From: Gammaproteobacteria bacterium
Lineage (GTDB): Bacteria; Pseudomonadota; Gammaproteobacteria; CAIRSR01
Direction of reading: 5' to 3'
Assembly: GCA_963575655.1 (NCBI GenBank)
Contig: CAUYTY010000188.1
Location: 1-37,078 of the forward strand
DNA length: 37,078 bases
The notes beneath the pieces were generated by a model, which was given only the letters and a program-made list of their open reading frames with translations, made no database searches and was not told the DNA's origin. Shown piece after piece: positions 1 to 36,748 of the stretch (positions are counted from its first letter, which is position 1; each line of letters begins with the position of its first letter). A program made the translations under genes and the position numbers.

Positions 1-669
1 ACACGACGAGTCACCATGACGGTAGTAGTGGCGGTAGCACGAGCACCGGTGGCGGTAGTACGAGCACGGGTGGTGGTAGTACCAGCACGAGCGGTGGCAG
101 CACGAGCGGCGGTAGCACGAGCGGCGGTAGCACGAGCGGCGGCGGTGAGGGTGGTGGAACCACATCCCACCACGGTACGACGAGTCACCACGACACGACG
201 AGTCACCATGACGGTAGTAGTGGCGGTAGCACGAGCACCGGTGGCGGTAGTACGAGCACGGGTGGTGGTAGTACCAGCACGAGCGGTGGCAGCACGAGCG
301 GCGGTAGCACGAGCGGCGGTAGCACGAGCGGCGGCGGTGAGGGTGGTGGAACCACATCCCACCACGGTACGACGAGTCACCACGACACGACGAGTCACCA
401 TGACGGTAGTAGTGGCGGTAGCACGAGCACCGGTGGCGGTAGTACGAGCACGGGTGGTGGTAGTACCAGCACGAGCGGTGGTAGCACGAGCGGTGGTAGC
501 ACGAGCGGTGGTAGCACGAGCGGTGGTAGCACGAGTGGCGGTAGCACGAGTGGCGGCAGCACGAGTGGCGGTAGCACGAGCGGCGGTGGCGAGGGTGGTG
601 GAACTACATCCCACCACGGTACGACGAGTCACCACGACACGACGAGTCACCACGATACGACGAGTCACC
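1..669 (+). repeat. 192-bp tandem repeat with expandable 15-bp sub-repeats
   Basis: Units begin at 1, 193 and 385; the marker ATGACGG recurs at 16, 208 and 400. A diverged fourth unit begins near 655 (ATGATGG at 670). Within units a 15-bp block encoding STSGG is repeated about four times in units 1-2 and more in unit 3. Identity between the first two units suggests recent duplication or ongoing homogenisation. The array is cut by the window edge, so its copy number is unknown. Confidence 0.9.
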
Positions 670-812
670 ATGATGGCAGTAGTGGGGGTAGCACGAGTGG
701 GGGTAGCACGAGCACGAGCGGCGGTGGTGAGGGTGGTGGTACCACGTCCCACCATGGTACGACTGGTCACCATGGTACGGTGGGTCACCACAGCGCAACG
801 GGTCACCATTAG
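1..812 (+). CDS. Gly/Ser/Thr/His-rich tandem-repeat protein, 3' part
   Basis: I read this in the frame starting at base 3. It is open from the window edge to TAG at 810-812, so the start lies upstream. The peptide is made of STSGG and GGGST blocks, a GGGEGGG spacer, and TTSHHG/TTSHHD triplets, ending in four GHH/SHH-type groups directly before the stop. Two successive 192-bp (64-codon) units appear identical. The third is expanded by 78 bp (26 codons), all within the STSGG array, so every length change keeps this frame. The competing frame (Val/Ala/Arg-rich, from ATG 16) looks like a translation artefact of the same repeats. His pairs spaced along a flexible Ser/Thr/Gly chain suggest metal binding or a surface/secreted linker, but no family is recognised and function is unknown. 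No signal sequence can be judged because the N-terminus is missing. Confidence 0.6.
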   Translation, partial: TTSHHDGSSGGSTSTGGGSTSTGGGSTSTSGGSTSGGSTSGGSTSGGGEGGGTTSHHGTTSHHDTTSHHDGSSGGSTSTGGGSTSTGGGSTSTSGGSTSGGSTSGGSTSGGGEGGGTTSHHGTTSHHDTTSHHDGSSGGSTSTGGGSTSTGGGSTSTSGGSTSGGSTSGGSTSGGSTSGGSTSGGSTSGGSTSGGGEGGGTTSHHGTTSHHDTTSHHDTTSHHDGSSGGSTSGGSTSTSGGGEGGGTTSHHGTTGHHGTVGHHSATGHH

Positions 813-828
813 CGTGTGAGATAACGGT

Positions 829-922
829 CGCCCCCTCATTCTCTCTTCACAATGAAGGATTGTGATCATTCGGATGTTCCGTGTGATCCAGTTTCTTCGC
901 TTGTGGGGGAGGTGAGGGGGCG
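829..922. repeat. Inverted repeat between repeat-protein gene and argS
   Basis: CGCCCCCTCA at 829-838 is exactly complementary to TGAGGGGGCG at 913-922, with imperfect pairing continuing inward for about ten more bases. It resembles the C/G-rich arms of the palindromic elements elsewhere in the window and may be a small relative. A terminator role for the upstream gene is possible, but there is no T-run. Confidence 0.4.
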
Positions 923-965
923 AAATTATTGCCCAATCTTATCTTGAGAAAGTGAGGTATTCCTC

Positions 966-16588: not shown

Positions 16589-19500
16589 ATGGCTGCCGAG
16601 AAGAATCTGTTGAACCCATCGAGACCGTCCTCAGTGAAGATCCCAACCGCAACCAGTGGGCCTGATATCGGTGACGCTGGTCTCTGTCGGCAGCACAGTG
16701 AAAAACTTCTGGGGCTTATCGCAGATACCTTGCCGGTGGCCATCTCATATGTGGACACCATCCCCCCCGGCGGATGGAACGCGGCAGCGGAATACCACCA
16801 GCGCCTCTGGCTCGCCCCCGACGCCGCTCAGGTCGGGACCTGGGAGTGGTTCCTCGAAACCAATCAATATTACTGGTCGGAGGAGATCTGGCCCCTCTAC
16901 GGACGGATGCCCCATAGCTGCCTGCCTTCCTATGATGGCTGGCTACAAGCAGTCTGCCCACTCGATCGCGAACGGGTGGCCGCAGCATTCTCGGCAGCTA
17001 CGGCGCAAGGTATTGAATTCAAGGTGGAATGGCGTGTCAATCCGGTAGCCGGGGCCTCGCTACGTTGGTTGATGGCGCATGGTCGGCCGGTTCGGGAGGT
17101 GGATGGTCGGATTACGAGTTACGTGGGCATTGTGTTCGATGTCACCGAGCGTAAGCGTGCTCGGCAGGCCCTGATGGAGAGCGAGGAACGCTACCGGCGA
17201 ATTGTCGCTACGGTACCAGGGATACTCTACGACTACATCCTGTATCCAGACGGGAGTAATCGTTTTCTGTACGTGGGGCCGCGACTGCACGAGATCCTTG
17301 AACTAGACGAGGCGGCACTGCTGGCCGATAGCCGCCTGTTCTGGGATATGGTCCACCCTGACGATGTGGCGTCGCTGCGTGCGGAGGACGTGGCCGCGCA
17401 TCGTGAAGGACGTTTGTTCAGTGCCGAGTGTCGCGTTATCACCCCTTCGCGTCAGCTGAAATGGATCCACCTCACCGCGAAGCCATGCCCAGGGTCGATA
17501 CCCACTCCAGGGGAGTGTATATTGCTTGACGATAGCCTCCCTTCGGCGGCAGTGAAACCAGGAGAGCCCGAACCCGCCATCTGGAGCGGGATCATCCTGG
17601 ACATTACGGCCCGCAAAGAAGCCGAGCAGGCCGTAAATGAGAGTGAGCACACCTACCGTTCGTTGTTCAAAAATCTACTCAATGGTGTTGCCTACTGTCG
17701 GATGCTCTACCGTAACGACCTACCGGAGGATTTCATCTATCTGGCGGTCAACGAGGCCTTCGTGGCCCAGACCGGGCTTCAAGACGTGGTGGGGAAACGG
17801 GTCTCCGAGGTAATTCCCGGTATTCGTGAGCAGGACCTCGAGCTATTTGAGATCCTTAGTCGCGTTGTGCTATCCGGTCGGCCGGAGTGTTTCGAGATCT
17901 ACGTTACCTCCCTACAACAGTGGATCTCGGCAACGGTATACAGCCCAGCGGCGACGCATTTTGTGTTGGTGTTCGACGTAATTACCGAGCGTAAGCAGAC
18001 GGAGGCCCGCCTACGTAAACTCTCGCTGGCGGTGGAGCAGAGTCCGAATAGTATCGTCATTACGAATACCGCTGCTGAAATTGAATATGTAAACGAATCA
18101 TTCACGCGTATCACCGGCTATACCCTCGATGAGGTGAGAGGTAAGAATCCGCGTATCCTGCAATCGGGGCAGACCCCGCCAGAACGTTATGAATTACTCT
18201 GGGATACCCTGACCCAAGGTCGCTCGTGGCAGGGTGAATTTGTCAATCAGCGCAAGAACGGGGAATTATTCGTTGAATACGAGATCTTTACCCCAATTCG
18301 GCAACCTGACGGTCGCGTTACCCACTATCTCGCCATCAAGGAGGATATTACTGAGAAGCAACGCCTCAATCAAGAACTTAATCAACACCGCCACCGTCTG
18401 GAGGAGTTGGTCAAGAAGCGTACCCAGCAATTGCAGGAGGCCAATCGTATCCTTGAAAAGACCTCGGCCGAGGTTGCCGACCTCTACAACAATGCCCCTT
18501 GCGGTTACCACTCGCTAGACGCCCAAGGCCGTTACGTTGCGGTCAACGATACGGAATTGGCAATGCTCGGCTATACCCGCGAGGAGTTGATTGGTAAGAA
18601 AAATATTCGCGATCTAATTTCTGTTGATTCCCAAGAACGGTTTTCTGCTAATTTCCAGACGCTTCTCAAAAATGGGCGAATCCGCGACGCGGAATATAAT
18701 CTAGTGTGTAAAAGTGGTGCATTGCTGCCTGTGGTCATCAATGCCGATACGGTTTGTGATGCCCAGGGTAATTTCCTTTATAGCCGTTCGACCCTGTTTG
18801 ACGATACCGATCGTAAACGCCGCGAGCAGCAGATCGTCTTACTAAATCGCCATTATTGGGCGGAATTAGCACGTCGCGCCGAAGAGGCGGAGGCCGCTAC
18901 TCGGGCCAAAAGCGCATTCCTGGCGAATATGAGCCACGAGATCCGTACCCCCATGAATGCGATCTTGGGGCTGACCCATCTGCTCCAACGCGGAATGAGC
19001 AATCCCAGTCATCTGGATAAACTCGATAAGATCTCTAGCTCCGCCCATCATCTATTATCGATTATCAACGGAATTTTGGACCTCTCAAAGATCGAGGCAG
19101 GTCGTTTCCAATTAGAGGTTACCGATTTCTCCGTCGATGAGATGTTGGCCAAGATCGTCGCCATGATTGGACCACGGGCACGCAGCAAAGGATTGACTCT
19201 CACCATTGACAAAGGGGGGCTACCCGCTTGGCTATACGGTGACCCGACTCGATTATCCCAAGTCCTGCTCAATTATCTGGACAATGCCGTAAAGTTTACC
19301 GAGCGCGGTGAGATTAGCTTATGCGCACGGATATTGGAGGTATTGGAAAACGAACTATGGGTACAATTTGAGGTTCAGGATACCGGTATTGGGATTGAGT
19401 CTGAGCAATGCTCACGACTCTTCTCTGCCTTTGAGCAGGCAGATAGTTCTATTACGCGGCGCTATGGCGGTACTGGATTAGGGTTGGCTATCAATCGACG

Positions 19501-20725
19501 CCTGGCCGCATTAATGGGGGGCGATACCGGAGTGGAAAGTGCTCCAGGGGTGGGGAGCACTTTTTGGCTTACGGCACGATTACGCCAGGGCTCGGAACAA
19601 GTGGTGCAGACTAAGAGGAAGGCCCTGGATGTAGAGCAAATATTGTTACGCGAGCATTGTCAGGCACGAATTCTGTTGGTAGAGGACAACCCGATCAATC
19701 AGGAAGTAGCGCGGGAACTATTGAAGGGGGTGGGTTTCGAGGTAGATCTAGCCGGTGATGGGGTCAATGCCTTGGCAAAGATACAAGAAGGTACCTACGA
19801 CCTTATTCTGATGGATGTGCATATGCCGGTCATGGATGGATTGGTCGCTACTCGTGCCATTCGCGCATTGCCTGGCTGGGAAAATGTACCTATCCTGGGG
19901 ATGAGCGCCAACGTTTTTGCCGAGGACCGACACCAGTGTTTGGCGGCAGGGATGGATGATTTTGTGGCTAAGCCGATGGTTCCGGAGGATCTATTTGCCA
20001 GTTTGGCGCGGTGGTTGCAAAACAGAAATGGGGGGAGCGCTACGATGGGGGAAAAGGCTGATACGGAATATCTCCGTCAGGATTCGGTAGCGATTGTACA
20101 AACCAATGTGGGAGCTGTGGTATCGACGGAATCTTTATTGCTGCGAGCGTTAACTGCGATTGCGGGTCTGGATACTACCCTGGGTTTGAAGACTCAGCGT
20201 GGCCAGCTTGAAAGCTATATCCGGTTATTGCATAGCTTCGCCCACTATCACCGCGATGATATGACACGCTTTGCCCAGAGCATGGCCAAAGGGGATCGCA
20301 AAGGGGCACAGCACTTGGTTCATACCCTTAAAGGCGTGGCCGGTAATCTGGGGGCCACCTCGCTACGGATACCAGTTCAACAATTAGAAGAGGCCCTCCG
20401 CCGTATTGATTCGGCCAAGGAAATCGACTCGCTGCAGATTATTGTGGAAAAAGAACTAAGTGCGCTGGTTACCGGTATCCTTGCCGTGCCGTTAATTGCT
20501 CCCGCAACTGTGGAGGTTAGCCCCGAACAGGCGCAGGAATTGCTGGATCAATTGGAACATCTACTTGCCACCAATGATTACGTTGGGCGTACATTTCTGC
20601 AAGAGCACAGTCTTCACCTTCGGGTTATTCTCGGGGAGCAGGCCACGGAATTAGAACGATTGGTTGAACGCTTCGATTATGAATCAGCCTTGGCCCTGGT
20701 GCGTGCCGCTCGTGTAGGAAAATAG
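16589..20725 (+). CDS. Cytosolic five-PAS hybrid sensor histidine kinase with receiver and HPt domains
   Basis: This 1,378-residue protein autophosphorylates on histidine and passes phosphate through an internal relay. I see about five PAS domains (near 70-190, 200-340, 350-465, 475-600 and 625-755), with linkers such as DVTERK, DITARK and DITEKQ. A coiled coil (about 595-625) separates PAS4 and PAS5. HisKA has H783 in SHEIRTPMN. The ATPase domain has its N-box near 898, DTGIGI at 931-936 and a GGTGLGLAI lid. The receiver phospho-acceptor is D1076 in LMDVHMP, and the HPt histidine is H1245 in HTLKG. No membrane helix is evident, so the signal is probably intracellular (redox, gas or small molecule). 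Start ATG 16589 has GGAG about 9 nt upstream. No partner regulator is adjacent. Confidence 0.93.
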
Positions 20726-20770: not shown

Positions 20771-20854
20771 GTAGCGGTGTAATGAGTTTCACCATGGGTT
20801 TCAACCCACGGCTAAACTCATTACACCGCTACACCGCTACACCGCTACACCGCT
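20771..20854. repeat. 19-bp stem-loop with attached octamer tandem repeat
   Basis: A perfect 19-bp stem (20771-20789 with 20814-20832) encloses a smaller TGGGTT/AACCCA hairpin. The right arm runs into four perfect copies of ACACCGCT (20823-20854). It lies just past the hybrid kinase stop and could end its transcript, but the tandem copies suggest repeat slippage at a palindrome. Confidence 0.8.
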
Positions 20855-20993
20855 ACGCAGCATTAACAGATCTGGTAGTTCTTTAGTCGAGAGTTGTCTA
20901 AGTAACCCAAGTTGCCACCTACTTGCCCCCCCCCCAGCCCCCCCCGTAAACGGGGAGGGAGTAGGCCGCAGACCTCCCCCCGTTTGCGGGGGG

Positions 20994-21764
20994 ATGGAGG
21001 GGGGACGATTGGATGCGATCCCGAATTTTTATATCGGTTATGTACCGTTTGTTTTAGGTAGGGAGTTTCCGAATCGAGTTAGTTATAACCGATTTGTAGA
21101 GCTAGAGCAATCCGTTCTAGTTCCACTGTGTGCCTATTTAAACACGCGTCGCGTTACTTCAAAAGGAATTGCATTTATTGACTCAACGCCATTACGTGTC
21201 TGCCATAACCGCCGTATTCCTCGTCACAGAACATTCAATGGACTCGCCGCAAGAGGAAAAACATCCGTTGATTGGTATTATGGATTTAAGTTGCATCTTG
21301 TTATTGATGACCAGGGAGAGCTGGTCTCTTTTCTTGTTACGCCAGGAAATATTGACGATCGTAAGGGGTTGAAGGAAATGGCAAAATTTATTAATGGTAA
21401 ATTGTTTGGAGACAAAGGGTACATTTCAAAGGCGCTTCAAGAATCTTTATGGGAGCAGGGAATTGAATTGATTACAAAAATTCGAAAGAATATGAAAAAG
21501 GTTTTTATTGGGGATTTTGACAAAATAATGTTGCGCAAACGATCCATAATTGAGACCGTTAACGATCAGCTAAAAAATATTTCTCAACTGGAACACACGC
21601 GTCATCGCAGTCTTGCTAATTTTATGGTGAATATAGTTTGTGCCCTTATCGCATACTCATGGCAACCAAAAAAGCCATCATTGAACCTTAGAAACTGGAA
21701 GACGAATAGTACAGATTTGATCGTAGTTGAAGAAAATAACACCCTATTTCTATCTAGAATGTGA
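20994..21764 (+). pseudogene. IS982-family transposase, 5'-truncated
   Basis: The reading frame of 256 codons matches IS982-type DDE transposases from about FYIGYVPFVLGREFPNRVSY onward. Catalytic acidic residues are visible in FIDSTPLRVCHNRR (first Asp), KLFGDKGYIS (second Asp) and RSIIETVNDQLKN (Glu). Complete family members are about 290-300 residues, so roughly the first 60-70 residues are missing. The first ten codons here (MEGGRLDAIP) come from the palindromic arm, not from the transposase. The catalytic core is uninterrupted, but loss of the N-terminal DNA-binding part probably inactivates it. A+T content is higher than in neighbouring housekeeping genes, as expected for an acquired element. 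Confidence 0.85.
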
Positions 21765-29189: not shown

Positions 29190-29334
29190 TGGACGGGGAG
29201 AGACTTGGCAACAGCAATCTTGTTATGCTGGCGGTCGTAGTGCAACTATCCCAGACGGTGGCAAGGATCTAATGTTGATTAGAGGTTCATCGCCCCCTCT
29301 CGGCTCACTGGCGACAACGACCCTGGTATTCCCA

Positions 29335-32300
29335 ATGAAGAAGAATTTATTCGTCCTTCTAGCCTTAACCTCAGCCCTAGTCATTGAAAGCAGTGTCGCA
29401 CTCGGTGCTACGCCAGTGGTGCGCCCCAACTACGACGCATCTCTTGAAGGATCGGCTACTTCCACGGTTCCATCCGTTACGAATGGTGTGTTGCCACGCT
29501 CGGCCTGGGTCCAGTCTCGTCGTTCCTCGCGCAACCAGGCAGCGGGCTATCCATCCAACGACGACGAACAACTCGGTACTACTACTTTTCTGTGGGCTGC
29601 CCCCAACACCGACCCCTCGCCACCGCCAGCGATGGCGGCAAAGCAGCAGGAGCGTGCGGCCCAGGTGGAGCGCACGACCCGCGAATTCCTCGGCCATAAC
29701 GGGGTGCGCCTCGGGCTTAGTAAACACACTATCGCTACGGCGCGGTTGCGCGAATTACACGATACCAAGCGTGGTCCCCTCATCGCACGTTATCAGCAGA
29801 TGCACGGTGGCGTTGAGGTCTTTGGTCGCCACCTGAACGTAATGCTGGATCGCGAGCTACGACCGGTCGCTGCCTCTGGCTACTTCGCACCGGATGACAG
29901 CAGCGACGGTACGGCCGTTGCCTCCGCCTTGGCCGATGGAGGATTTCGCCAATCCCCGCAGCAGGCAATCGCCAGCGCGGTCGCTGACCTTGGGGGGGAG
30001 ATCGACCCTGCTACCCTGGAATCGCTTGGAGAACGCGACGACTACACCCTGTTTCGTGTTACTCGGCAGACGGGAGCATACCGCCTCACCGATACGGCGC
30101 GTAGTAAACGAGTTTACTTTCCCCTTGATGGTCGTCTTGTCCCGGCTTGGTACTTGGATGTGTCGCTGGAAAAGCGCGGTCAGGCTGGGCGCCTCTCCTA
30201 CGGCTATGTGGTCGCGGCGGAAGATGGGCGTATCCTGTTCCGTAACAACCATATAGATCGCGCGGCCTTTAGTTACCGCGTGTTTGCCGATGCTATCTCT
30301 CCAGGAATGCCCTTCGATACCCCCTTCGGCAATGATATTGTCCCACTAACGGCGTTGGATCCCAATCTTACCCTGCCGCGCATCTCGGCGGAGACCAATC
30401 TAGTCACTCTGGAGAGTGGTCCTATTGCTACCGGTGATCCGTGGCTTCCCAGCGGTGCTACCACGACCGTAGGTAACAATGTTGATGCCTACGTGGATCT
30501 AGGGGGTGGTAACGGGCGTCAGCCCAAGTCTGGTGACTTTCGCGCCAAGGTTACCAGCCTGCGCAGCTTCGACTATTCAGTCGTCGCCGATACCGATCCG
30601 ACCACCCCGACCGCACGCAACGGGGGGATCGTCAATTTGTTCTACGTGAACAACTTTCTACACGATTGGTGGTACGGCAACGGTTTCGACGAGGCCGCTG
30701 GTAACGCCCAAACCAACAACTATGGTCGTGGTGGACTAGGTGGCGATCCCATCCTCGCTGAGGGGCAGGATTATAGTGGTTTTGATAACGCCAACATGGA
30801 TACGCCCGCCGATGGTAGAAGTCCGCGTATGCAGATGTTTCTTTGGAGCGGGTCAACTGCTGCCAACGCTACGCTTTCCGCAGTGGGTCTCGGTTCACTG
30901 GTTACTAATGTCGCAGACTTCGGGGCAATGCAGTTTGATCTCGACGGTCAGGTGGTAACCGTTACCCCGGCCGATGCCTGCACCGACCTCACCAATACCA
31001 CCAACGTCAGCGGCAACATTGCGTTCATCGACCGCGGGAATTGTTTCTTCGTGGATAAGGTGGCGAATGTCCAAAAGGCTGGGGCTATTGGCGCGATCAT
31101 TGTTAACAACAGCGATGACGGGACTGCACCGAGCATGACCGGTACCAACGAAGCGGTCACCATCCCCGTCCTAAGCACCTCATTTGCGGATGGTGCTCGC
31201 ATCAAAAACGAGATTGCCCGAGGTCCGCTTACGGTGACCATGCATCGAGCCCCAAGCGCCAACCGTGATGGAGGTATAGACAACGGCATCATCGCCCACG
31301 AATGGTTTCACTACGTCAGTAATCGCCTAGTTGGTAACGGTGATGGCCTCTCCAATAAACAAGGTGGCGCCCTGGGCGAGGGTTGGAGTGACGTTAGTGC
31401 CCTACTGCTGGAGGCGCGCCCGGAGGATGCAACCGTGGCGGGCAACGCCAATTTCCAGGGGGCCTATCCGTTCGGCATCTACACTATGCCGAGTCCCTAT
31501 TTTGGTATTCGGCGTGCGCCTTACTCCACCAATCCGGCGGTGTTCCCGATGACCTTCAAGCACATCACCGACGGTGTGACACTTCCCAGCACCGCACCAT
31601 TGGCGCCGGGAGGAGACAACTCCGAGGAACATAGCGCCGGTGAGATCTGGGCCAACACCCTGTGGGATTTCTACGTCTCCTTGATCAACGATGCACGCTA
31701 TACCTTCCGTGAGGCCCAGGACCGGATGAAGGACTACATTATCGCCGGCCTCAAGATGACCCCGAACGCCCCAACCTTCCTTGAGGCACGTGACGCGCTG
31801 TTGGCGGCGGTCAAGGCCACGGATCGCGCAGACTTCGAACTCGCGACCAAATCATTTGCAAAGTACGGCATGGGGGTAGGTGCGATAGCGCCCTCTCGCA
31901 ATTCCCAAGATAACTCTGGATTGGTAGAGAGTTTCGTAGCGTTAAGGGCTTCGTACGAAGTGGTGGAAACAACCCTGGATACCACCTACCTTACTAGCAC
32001 CGCTGGCTACTGCGATGCGGACGGGGTATTGGATGCCGGTGAGACCGCATTGTTGACTCTGCGCATCCGCAACTCTGGGAACCAGCCCCTGCCACGGAGA
32101 TTGACGGCACAAGTTACTTCGACGGCGGATGTGTCCTTTGGTAACAGTGGCCGGATCGTCTTTGGCGTCTTTGATGTCAATGGTTTTGCCACCGGTAGCC
32201 TCCCTGTCACGCTGCATAGTGCTGCCACTGCGGCTGATTTAAAGTTGAAGGTTGATTTCCCGCAGGCGGGTGCGACCCCCAACACGGTGTTCGAACCGCA

Positions 32301-33285
32301 AACCGTATGGGTCGAAAGGATCGTCAATTACAACCTCAAAAGTTCTCTTTTCACCGTGGATAATGCGGAGCAAATCGCAGCCACCACGGCTGACTGGTCA
32401 CCCACATTGACGGAGATTTCCCCAGGGGCAGGTGAAGGTTGGCGAGTCACTAGCGACCTTAACGACAGCTATCACACTGGTCAGGCATGGTTCATCCCGG
32501 ACAACGATACTCCCACCGACGCATCTCTTATTTCCCCGGTGATTAAGGTTGGAACCCAGCCTTTCAGCGTCAAATTTGATACTGCGTTCCAATTTGAGAT
32601 CGACACCGATGATGGTCCCGGTTTTAGTTTCGATGGCGGTGTAGTCGAGGTCAAAATCGGCAGCGGCAGGTGGCAAGACGTACTGGCGGCAGGGGGTAGC
32701 TTTACTCGGGGTGGCTACAACACTCAGGTCATAGCCTTCGCCCCAAACTACGATGTCGCTGGCGCTTGTGCTGGTTTTGGTGGTTTTAGCGCTGGACTCA
32801 CACCGCAGACGATCAGCTTCGGTACTGCGCTTGCTGGGCGTAGTGTGCGTCTACGCTTCCGTGCTGCCACCGATAGCGGTACTGGTGAACTCGGTTGGTT
32901 GGTGGACAACATTCGAGTGGTTGGCGCCACCAATCTACCCTTCAGCGAGGTAGTCGCTGACACTGCCACCTGCGTCAATCGCCCTCCCTACGTGCGTGTC
33001 CCGGCCGTGTTCTCGACCCCGGAGCGCCTTGCCGGTCAGTCTGACCAAGCGATCATCAAACTGGTCGGCAGCGCCAAGGATCTGGACGGCCTCAACGGCC
33101 TTACCTACCTCTGGACCCAGACCTCTGGCCCAGCGGTGACACTAAACAATGCGCAAAGACCCACCGCCTACTTTCGAGCCCCATTGGTTAGCACGGATAC
33201 CGTTATGGGCTTCGAGTTACGGGTCAGTGATGGGACCAACACCCGCATCGGATCGGTCACGGTGACCCTACTTAACGTGGACTAA
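29335..33285 (+). CDS. Secreted M36-family (fungalysin-type) metallopeptidase with PA domain
   Basis: Zinc endopeptidase secreted as a proenzyme. I start at ATG 29335 because MKKNLFVLLALTSALVIESS is a classic signal peptide with cleavage expected near VALGA; an upstream ATG at 29272 would add 21 residues before it. Of 1,316 residues, about 100-350 form the FTP-type propeptide. The catalytic region has HEWFH (H655-H659, the HEXXH zinc motif) and E682 in GEGWSD. A protease-associated domain (about 540-630) is inserted just before the active site. The long C-terminal part (about 880-1316) is beta-rich and ends in a PKD/Ig-like domain (about 1215-1314, near YLWTQTSGPAV). It probably degrades external protein. 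It is monocistronic, and no type I or sorting tail motif is evident. Confidence 0.92.
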   Translation: MKKNLFVLLALTSALVIESSVALGATPVVRPNYDASLEGSATSTVPSVTNGVLPRSAWVQSRRSSRNQAAGYPSNDDEQLGTTTFLWAAPNTDPSPPPAMAAKQQERAAQVERTTREFLGHNGVRLGLSKHTIATARLRELHDTKRGPLIARYQQMHGGVEVFGRHLNVMLDRELRPVAASGYFAPDDSSDGTAVASALADGGFRQSPQQAIASAVADLGGEIDPATLESLGERDDYTLFRVTRQTGAYRLTDTARSKRVYFPLDGRLVPAWYLDVSLEKRGQAGRLSYGYVVAAEDGRILFRNNHIDRAAFSYRVFADAISPGMPFDTPFGNDIVPLTALDPNLTLPRISAETNLVTLESGPIATGDPWLPSGATTTVGNNVDAYVDLGGGNGRQPKSGDFRAKVTSLRSFDYSVVADTDPTTPTARNGGIVNLFYVNNFLHDWWYGNGFDEAAGNAQTNNYGRGGLGGDPILAEGQDYSGFDNANMDTPADGRSPRMQMFLWSGSTAANATLSAVGLGSLVTNVADFGAMQFDLDGQVVTVTPADACTDLTNTTNVSGNIAFIDRGNCFFVDKVANVQKAGAIGAIIVNNSDDGTAPSMTGTNEAVTIPVLSTSFADGARIKNEIARGPLTVTMHRAPSANRDGGIDNGIIAHEWFHYVSNRLVGNGDGLSNKQGGALGEGWSDVSALLLEARPEDATVAGNANFQGAYPFGIYTMPSPYFGIRRAPYSTNPAVFPMTFKHITDGVTLPSTAPLAPGGDNSEEHSAGEIWANTLWDFYVSLINDARYTFREAQDRMKDYIIAGLKMTPNAPTFLEARDALLAAVKATDRADFELATKSFAKYGMGVGAIAPSRNSQDNSGLVESFVALRASYEVVETTLDTTYLTSTAGYCDADGVLDAGETALLTLRIRNSGNQPLPRRLTAQVTSTADVSFGNSGRIVFGVFDVNGFATGSLPVTLHSAATAADLKLKVDFPQAGATPNTVFEPQTVWVERIVNYNLKSSLFTVDNAEQIAATTADWSPTLTEISPGAGEGWRVTSDLNDSYHTGQAWFIPDNDTPTDASLISPVIKVGTQPFSVKFDTAFQFEIDTDDGPGFSFDGGVVEVKIGSGRWQDVLAAGGSFTRGGYNTQVIAFAPNYDVAGACAGFGGFSAGLTPQTISFGTALAGRSVRLRFRAATDSGTGELGWLVDNIRVVGATNLPFSEVVADTATCVNRPPYVRVPAVFSTPERLAGQSDQAIIKLVGSAKDLDGLNGLTYLWTQTSGPAVTLNNAQRPTAYFRAPLVSTDTVMGFELRVSDGTNTRIGSVTVTLLNVD

Positions 33286-33602: not shown

Positions 33603-34420
33603 ATGGAACATCAAGAGATTTCAGATAAATTTTGGAAGAAAGTTAAACCCTTGCTGGATCCATTCGTGCGGAAGAAATCAGGTGGCAGTCCGCCTATAGA
33701 CTTCCAGATCATTCTAAATGGTATTCTACACATTCTTAAAACAGGCTGTCAGTGAAATTGCCTACCACATATCTATGGCTCAAAGAGTACAATTCATGAG
33801 CACTTTCAACAATGGGAGGCTGCTGGCGTTTTTCGTGAAATTTTTCGTTTAGATTATTATGAATATTAATAACTTAAAGTCGTTAGGTGGGAATGGCAGT
33901 CTATGGATGGTTCATTGGTACAAGCGCCCGTACGAGGGCAGATAGTATGTTTGGCGGAAGAAGGATTAGGACATAATCCGACCGAGAACGTAGCGGAAGT
34001 AAATTCCATTTGCAGGTGAATCAAGATGGAATACCTTTGGGAGTAGTTGTTGTTGGAGCCAATATCCACGATAGCAGTTTAGTCTCCTTAACGTTGGCAA
34101 CCGATATTCTCCCACGCCCTAAACCGACGCCAGAACGTCCCCAAAATATGTGCTTAGATAAAGGGTACGACTACCCTCGCGTCGAAAAAGAAGTGAGGGA
34201 AAATGATTATGTTCCACACATTCGCCGCATTGGTGAAAAGAAAATCGGGAAAGGAAAGAAAGCGCGTACCGCCCGACGCTGGGTGGTCGAGCGAACAATT
34301 GCCTGGGTGAAAGGTTTTCGGGCGATTCGTACCCGTTACATCTGTAAAGCAAGAAATTACTTGGCGATGGTTCATTTAGGTTGTGCATTGATTATATTTA
34401 GGAAAATCATAAAATCATAA
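33603..34420 (+). pseudogene. IS5-family transposase, inactivated
   Basis: From ATG 33603 (GGAG about 9 nt upstream) the frame reads MEHQEISDKFWKKVKPLL. It is broken by TGA at 33753-33755, where a Trp is expected (TGCQ-stop-NCLP), and by TAATAA at 33867-33872. A frameshift near 33990 then separates WQSMDGSLVQAPVRG from GSKFHLQVNQDGIPLGVVV. The last 136 codons (34010-34420) are open and contain LCLDKGYDYPRVEKE-type and RRWVVERTIAWVKGFRAI motifs carrying the later DDE residues. With three independent lesions it is not functional. Confidence 0.88.
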
Positions 34421-34482
34421 AATCATAAAATCATAAAATCATAAAATCATAAAATCATAAAATCATAAAATCATAAAATCAT
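34403..34482. repeat. Ten-copy octamer microsatellite AAAATCAT
   Basis: Ten perfect tandem copies of AAAATCAT span 34403-34482, starting in the last codons of the dead transposase and ending 234 bases before the next gene. Eight is not a multiple of three, so length changes would alter reading frame if translated. Perfect copies imply recent expansion. Confidence 0.95.
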
Positions 34483-34716
34483 AAATAACGCAAATTCTGT
34501 GCCGGACCTCTTCTTAGGTGGGTAGCTGCGTTGGTGATTCGCTTGTCACATAATCGAAACAATAGATTGTTACACTGACGAACTACCCATTGATTCCTGC
34601 TGAATTATATACCGAACAACAAAATCTACAAAGTTTCCCGTAACCCTTCATTCCCACCATATTGGGGAAAGCGCTTACCACCGGGAATTATCATGTGTTA
34701 AATGGATAATTAATTT

Positions 34717-36748
34717 ATGAAATATAAATATTTAATATCTTTTGCTGTATTAAAGAAATGGCAGAGTGGCTTTATAAGTCGCTCGCTGTATTGGTCTAGG
34801 CAATGGAAGTTGTCTCATCAATTGTTATTCTCCTCGTTATTAGTGACGTTGGTATTAGTCGTGACGGCAGGAACTTTTATCATCAACACTGAGGAACAAC
34901 AGCATCATAAGATATATGAGGCTACCTTGAGAGAAAAACTATCCTCTTTGGTGAGTACAATTATGGATGATTTAATCGATCTAGATGTGCGGGTACTTAA
35001 AGTAATCTTAGCGGAGACCGGGAAGAAAGATGATAATATTCTATCTTTGGAAGTATATAACCATGCTGGTATTTCTCTTGCCGAATGGAAAAGGGTGGCG
35101 TCTGCTTCGTCAATAGTTGCCAAAACTATGGAGTCGGAGTTATTGGTTTTCGGTCAGGTACGGGTAACATGGGATATGACCTCCCATCTAACGGAGATTA
35201 AGCAACATATTCATCGATTACTTTATACCCTAACGCTGACGCTGTTGACTCTTGCTACCAGTTTGATCCTGTTAGCACGGCTGATTGTGATACGACCAAT
35301 TCGAATCATTCATGAATCCTTGCAGACCGAGATTGCCTCGAAGGTCGCTATGCCCTACGCCGCCCGCGAGTTACAGAAGCTTAGCGAGGCAGCCACTACT
35401 TTGTTAAACCTCAAACGAGAGATTAATCGCAGCGAACTACGCTATCGGGGGTTATTCGACAACATGATCTCTGGTTGTATGGTGCTATCAGGTGCGGAAA
35501 ATAACTTTCGGATTGAGGATCTCAATGAGAGTTGTCGCCGCTTACCGGTTTTGGGAATAGGCAAACGGCAGGTTACCAACCTCAATGAGGTGATTAAGGA
35601 AAATGAGGCTCCCGCTCTCTATGAGGTTTTACGGAATGCATCAAAGAATCAGGCACCGTGCCATATTGAGGAATTTTCTCTGGAAAGAACTGGTCATAAT
35701 TATCGGTTAGACTGTCATGTTTTTTCGCTGGATGATGGTGAGATGGTCTTGGTGATTCGCGATGTCACCGAAAGAAGAATTGCACAAGACTTGCGTCGGG
35801 CCAAAGAGGCAGCAGAACAAGCAAATAAACTCAAGAGCGTATTTCTGGCCAGTATGAGTCACGAGATTCGCACTCCACTCAACGGGGTACTGAGTATGGT
35901 GGAACTTTTGCGCGGCACCCACTTGAGCAACAAACAGCAACATTGGGTTAATGCGATCCGTGGATCGGGTCAAATCCTCTTGTCTACTATCAATGATATC
36001 TTGGATTTCTCTAGAATTGAAGCGGGGCGATTGCGTCTGGAGAATATTCGCTTTTCGCTAAGCGAGATCATTGGGAACTTATTTAATGCGACCTCGCAGC
36101 GCGCCTTTGAAAAAGATCTGGAATTGGTTTTGCGGCAGGACCCAGATGTACCCGATCAGTTGATTGGTGACCCTTTCCGTATCCAACAAATATTAATAAA
36201 CCTGGTCGGCAATGCAATAAAATTCACGGAGCGCGGCGAGGTAGAAATCACCATAAGGAAACGCGACCTTGCTAATAATCGATTGCTGCTTTGTGTGTCG
36301 GTACGTGATACGGGTATTGGCATCGCGCCGCATCAACTGCGACGGGTGTTTCTCCCTTTTGAACAAGGAGTGGGTAACCGTTCTTTTTCCAACGAAGGGA
36401 CCGGGTTGGGCCTGCCTATCAGTAAACGCTTGGTGGATGCTATGGAGGGAAAGATCGGAGTAGAAAGCAGCCTTGGGGAAGGCAGTGTGTTTCATTTTGA
36501 GGTGCCAGTGGGTGTAATTGATATACCGCGCACAATACCACGGTTGGTTTCTCAACTCTGGCATGAATGCCAAACACTGATCTGGATCCGGCAGGAGGCA
36601 GTACGTGAGTCGATTACTCATGCCCTTGATTCTTTCGGTTTCAAAACCCACGCGATATCATCGGTCACCGAAGCAGTCAACTGGACCCGTGGTATGGATA
36701 ACAAGGAGCGTCTCTGTTTAATCGTGCTACTAACCTGCGCGTTGGTTA
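34717..36748 (+). pseudogene. Membrane hybrid histidine kinase interrupted by an IS630-type insertion
   Basis: The frame runs on to 36825, but native sequence appears to stop near 36748. The product has two membrane helices (about 35-56 and 168-192) around a periplasmic sensor of ~110 residues, a PAS-like region (about 245-355, ending VIRDVTERR), HisKA with H382 in SHEIRTPLNG, and an ATPase domain (N-box [24 protein letters not shown]). A receiver-like segment starts near LIWIRQEAVRESI but is cut before its phospho-acceptor. The last ~26 residues come from antisense IS sequence. The kinase core is intact and may retain activity without its receiver. Start ATG 34717 lacks a clear ribosome site. 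Confidence 0.8.

Follow-up and report, generated by a model that had tools for sequence, protein, structure and literature searches.

A histidine-pair repeat protein cut by a contig edge in a gammaproteobacterial draft genome, a candidate metal-binding tail

The first 812 bases of a gammaproteobacterial contig can be read as a Gly/Ser/Thr-rich chain carrying regularly spaced histidine pairs, in a frame with a stop codon and no visible start, which raises the questions of whether this chain is a real protein, where the rest of its gene lies and what it might do. The window analysed here is the entire contig C188 (37,078 bases), one of the 261 contigs of a 4.2 Mb draft genome whose completeness is 98%. 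The frame from base 3 is open up to the TAG, and a check for upstream stops, reaching back to the contig edge, found none. The preliminary description had reported a frame without a visible start; the start is indeed absent from the window, because the C188 assembly ends inside the repeat, but the gene itself is not startless, and what is missing reflects an assembly edge and no biological oddity. A caution follows for similar cases, namely that a gene may look "startless" where a window ends because the contig breaks within the gene's own repeat. Downstream lies argS (966), its nearest counterparts among named organisms being gammaproteobacterial (about 70% identity). The neighbours upstream of argS differ in three relatives, and the 5' half was not identified in that way.

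The repeat architecture was then measured (Table 1). Tandem Repeats Finder (TRF) gave a 192-bp unit in 2.7 copies with 99% matches across bases 1-523, and unit lengths (64, 64, 90 and 51 codons) were counted from the TTSHHDGSSGG landmark. These measurements bore out the earlier claim of 64-codon units with a 26-codon expansion in a protein ending in HH groups at the TAG; the expansion, in unit 3, consists of four GGSTS (20 codons) and one TTSHHD (6 codons). Gly, Ser and Thr account for 225 of the 269 residues (90, 73 and 62, respectively), the others including 30 His, 8 Asp, 4 Glu, one Val and one Ala. Every His belongs to one of the 15 HH pairs, which are spaced by 6 residues inside clusters, the gaps from one cluster to the next being 52, 52, 72 and 28 residues. 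Bases 1-289 are repeated exactly from 193 and units 1 and 2 are identical; therefore the assembled copy number is uncertain and may differ from the true one.

Table 1. Positions of the repeat protein, its subunits and the adjacent hairpin in the window.
Feature	Position	Strand	Remarks
Gly/Ser/Thr-rich protein, C-terminal 269 codons, 15 His-His pairs	3..812	+	5' end cut by contig edge; stop TAG 810-812
Repeat unit 1, 64 codons	3..194	+	TRF, TTSHHDGSSGG landmark
Repeat unit 2, 64 codons, identical to unit 1	195..386	+	Landmark; exact recurrence
Repeat unit 3, 90 codons, longer by four GGSTS and one TTSHHD	387..656	+	Landmark
Terminal diverged unit, 51 codons and stop, end SHHGTTGHHGTVGHHSATGHH	657..812	+	Landmark
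Seven consecutive GGSTS pentapeptides (15-bp units)	477..581	+	
His-pair cluster of unit 3, four TTSHH[G/D] hexapeptides (18-bp units)	603..674	+	
Terminator-like hairpin, weak	918..934	+	Between the His-pair gene and argS (966); consensus match only

The genome was searched by protein, by DNA and with two patterns. Among the matches, the loci coding for GST repeats were on C188, C195 and C244; the second pattern search gave five further single matches, a level like that of the reversed control, the contexts of these five not having been read. The C195 locus (G000:C195:93452-94228, minus strand) encodes a complete paralog of 258 aa with a signal peptide, a hydrophobic segment near its end and, between the two, TTSHH (TTSHHG/TTSHHD) and THH/GHH cassettes on a Gly/Ser/Thr linker. 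It resembles the C188 protein in these cassettes and this linker, and the cassettes that define the C195 family, GGxTTSHH and HH hexapeptides on a GST linker, are present in C188; it differs in being complete and in having neither the 192-bp units nor a FecR domain.

The third locus, on C244, is the 5' part of a gene for a FecR-domain protein, in which a signal peptide and a His-rich stretch precede the FecR domain; after this domain come a hydrophobic segment and, beyond it, a run of Ser and GGSTSTS repeats. The fragment matches PF04773 (E 1.3e-8; 35.6 bits for a cut-off of 24), so that the likely N-terminal half passes the curated threshold for this domain of exported proteins; the domain is absent from the C188 part. 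Its eight His all fall within 25 residues, and the N-terminal half is therefore His-rich as well. The N-terminal part (L003 740-1036, minus) was also seen to hold two VExVxGxVNVNGVPAVAG copies with the His-rich insert between them. When the C244 N-terminus was used to search the genome, the only match outside C244 itself was C195 (15/23 identical, E 4e-8). Thus, C195 resembles C244 in its signal peptide, of the MSLxxYxLxGCxAF type, and C188 in its repeats; the N-terminus of the C188 gene lies off-contig. FecR homologs in two other genomes (G001 and G002) are about 30% identical, and the Gly-Ser-Thr/His-pair tail was not seen in those read.

Is the STSGG/HH frame the one that is translated? That this frame is kept through every length change, as had been pointed out, is true but not diagnostic: every subunit has a length in bp divisible by 3, and two other frames, Val/Ala/Arg (1-819) and one antisense (869-3), are likewise open, so length changes cannot pick a frame. 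The substitution pattern does. Among differing codons of the repeat copies, compared without gaps, the synonymous share was 59% in the STSGG/HH frame and 13% in each of the Val/Ala/Arg and antisense frames; between C188 and the C195 paralog the shares were 54%, 9% and 16%, respectively. About 60% of mismatches fall on the third codon position of the STSGG/HH frame. No P value is attached, since the comparisons overlap and are non-independent. This synonymous excess, found in the STSGG/HH frame only, supports the protein originally proposed and speaks for rejecting the two other frames. Codon scores were +0.089 for the STSGG/HH frame and -0.047 for the Val/Ala/Arg frame, the real genes of the window scoring 0.006 to 0.086 in their own frames; the codon-aligned antisense frame reached 0.244, above the STSGG/HH frame, a value taken to be compositional. 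It is extremely improbable that the region is non-coding as read, that is, a DNA element or a stretch translated in one of the rival frames: their openness and the antisense codon score speak for it, against a substitution pattern that favours the STSGG/HH frame alone, both inside the repeat and relative to C195, and against the occurrence of GST-type peptides in frame after the Pfam FecR domain on C244 and after the signal peptide on C195.

On this reading the 3' end of a real gene occupies bases 3-812 and its 5' part is on another contig, most likely C244. The C188 gene has no 5' end, the C244 gene has no 3' end, and the GGSTSTS tail of C244 exits through the contig edge in the orientation that a join to C188 needs; from these compatible ends we judged the two to be, probably, halves of one gene. 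The longest exact word that they share is 11 bp, with no overlap and no spanning read, and Gly is encoded by GGA on C244 and by GGT, GGC and GGG on C188. Given these codon differences and the absent overlap, the C188 tail could come from a third gene, the 5' end of which would sit on an unbinned or short contig and which might encode a second C195-like protein without FecR; the His-repeat cassette is, moreover, demonstrated with the C195 architecture only. We consider this origin of the C188 tail unlikely, given that the search with the C244 N-terminus returned just C244 and C195, that only two GST-coding loci among the repeat-search matches lie at contig edges, in compatible orientations, and that the genome is nearly complete.

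Assuming the C244-C188 join, the whole protein would begin with a cleavable signal peptide, continue through a His-rich insert to a FecR-like domain, and then carry a hydrophobic segment and a Ser/Gly/Thr linker ahead of tandem cassettes of the form [GGSTS]n-GGGEGGGTTSHH-(GTTSHHD)n and terminal HH groups. Its size could change by in-frame slippage or recombination of the 15-, 18-, 21- and 192-bp units. The surface or envelope role suggested at the outset gains indirect support, since a signal peptide, a sign of export, stands at the start of both the C195 paralog and C244, the likely 5' half. A difficulty is that the His repeats come before the hydrophobic segment in C195 and would come after it in the C244-C188 fusion; should this segment truly anchor the protein in the membrane, the tail of the fusion would be cytoplasmic and the side of the membrane may differ from that of C195.

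The most likely role, in which our confidence is about even, would be that of an envelope-exported, disordered tail binding transition metals with low affinity and serving as a metal buffer or scavenger. Metal coordination by the His pairs is inferred from composition. The C188 part is expected to be disordered, and a long Gly/Ser/Thr chain of this kind with His pairs clustered at 6-residue steps would suit weak, many-copy metal binding; such a flexible, envelope-attached tail could hold Ni, Zn, Cu or Co ions loosely at its His pairs. Histidine-rich low-complexity regions are enriched in Ni/Co-binding proteins of prokaryotes (PMC6821194). As far as the neighbours of the C188, C195 and C244 loci were read, no obvious metal gene was found. 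In the main rival reading, the tail would act as a structural spacer or as a surface stalk of adhesin-like type, with the Gly/Ser/Thr repeat as a flexible linker and the His pairs serving pH-dependent or polysaccharide interactions rather than metals. The dominance of Gly, Ser and Thr and the repeat number differing from unit to unit would fit such a stalk, as would the position of the C244 gene, divergent from an ORF identified by eye as YjbH-like, a kind of protein linked to exopolysaccharide. Against it, the C188 protein (30 His) and the C195 paralog (25 His) have both retained the His pairs although they have diverged, and C244, the likely N-terminal half, has a His-rich insert of its own; we regard a stalk as rather unlikely. 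Returning to the metal-binding tail, a wider proposal is quite doubtful at present: these proteins might form a lineage-specific class of FecR-anchored envelope proteins in which the His-pair tail buffers metals tunably, in-frame change of repeat number setting how much it can hold.

Known His-rich proteins offer partial parallels. Plasmodium HRP2 is built of His-pair tandem repeats with Ala/Asp, where C188 has Gly/Ser/Thr, and, being eukaryotic, is a resemblance only. Among histidine-rich low-complexity metal-binding proteins, Helicobacter Hpn/Hpn-2 and the His-rich loops of ZnuA and PA4063 share with C188 a high His content in a flexible low-complexity segment (PMC4671568, PMC4542158, PMC8561739). 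The C188 protein differs from these in its strict His pairs, 6-residue steps and long tandem Gly/Ser/Thr repeats; no homology to them was found, and its metal binding is putative. If correct, our reading would describe a His-pair repeat scaffold that occurs naturally, is genetically encoded, is exported by a gammaproteobacterium and is open to rapid in-frame change of copy number, and would provide a simple test case for repeat number tuning metal capacity.

Distribution was assessed by several searches. The C188 protein, first described as unrecognised, matched no Pfam or NCBIfam model, in keeping with that description, and a protein search of plasmids gave no match. In the PDB, the sole match was HasA (E about 0.1), taken as low-complexity chance. 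The C195 protein found no relatives in 55 other genomes, among them the one other genome of the same genus and two of the same family. A DNA pattern of three successive HHxTxx matched, among 369 genomes of the class, the own genome and three others: the one context viewed, that of G136, is Cys/Arg-rich, and the matched bases of G086 and G058 read HHATTP and HHATTA, with G058 also matching in a control. A literature search on FecR combined with histidine-rich repeats yielded nothing on this architecture. The C188 protein is a real but lineage-specific histidine-rich low-complexity variant. In viral contigs the HHxTxx pattern gave 104 stretches, and the 45 richest in HH, which were viewed, were mostly Arg/Pro/Gln-rich or chance frames. 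Five viral loci (L213, L219, L198, L166 and L215) have ORFs of 708-820 aa with His pairs or triplets on Gly- or Asn-rich sequence; their motifs (HHHTNPHHHTNP, HHTTHPHH) are of another kind than the C188 repeat.

Other features of the window were noted. A perfect 8-bp tandem array (AAAATCAT, 10.4 copies) at 34403-34485 lies upstream of a histidine kinase ORF at 34717 and could be a slippage-prone regulatory repeat. Another perfect 8-bp array (TACACCGC, 4.4 copies) at 20822-20856 is flanked by a PAS histidine kinase (16589-20725) and a DDE transposase ORF (20994-21764). At 29272-33285, a 1337-aa protein combines M36 fungalysin metallopeptidase, PA and PKD-like domains.
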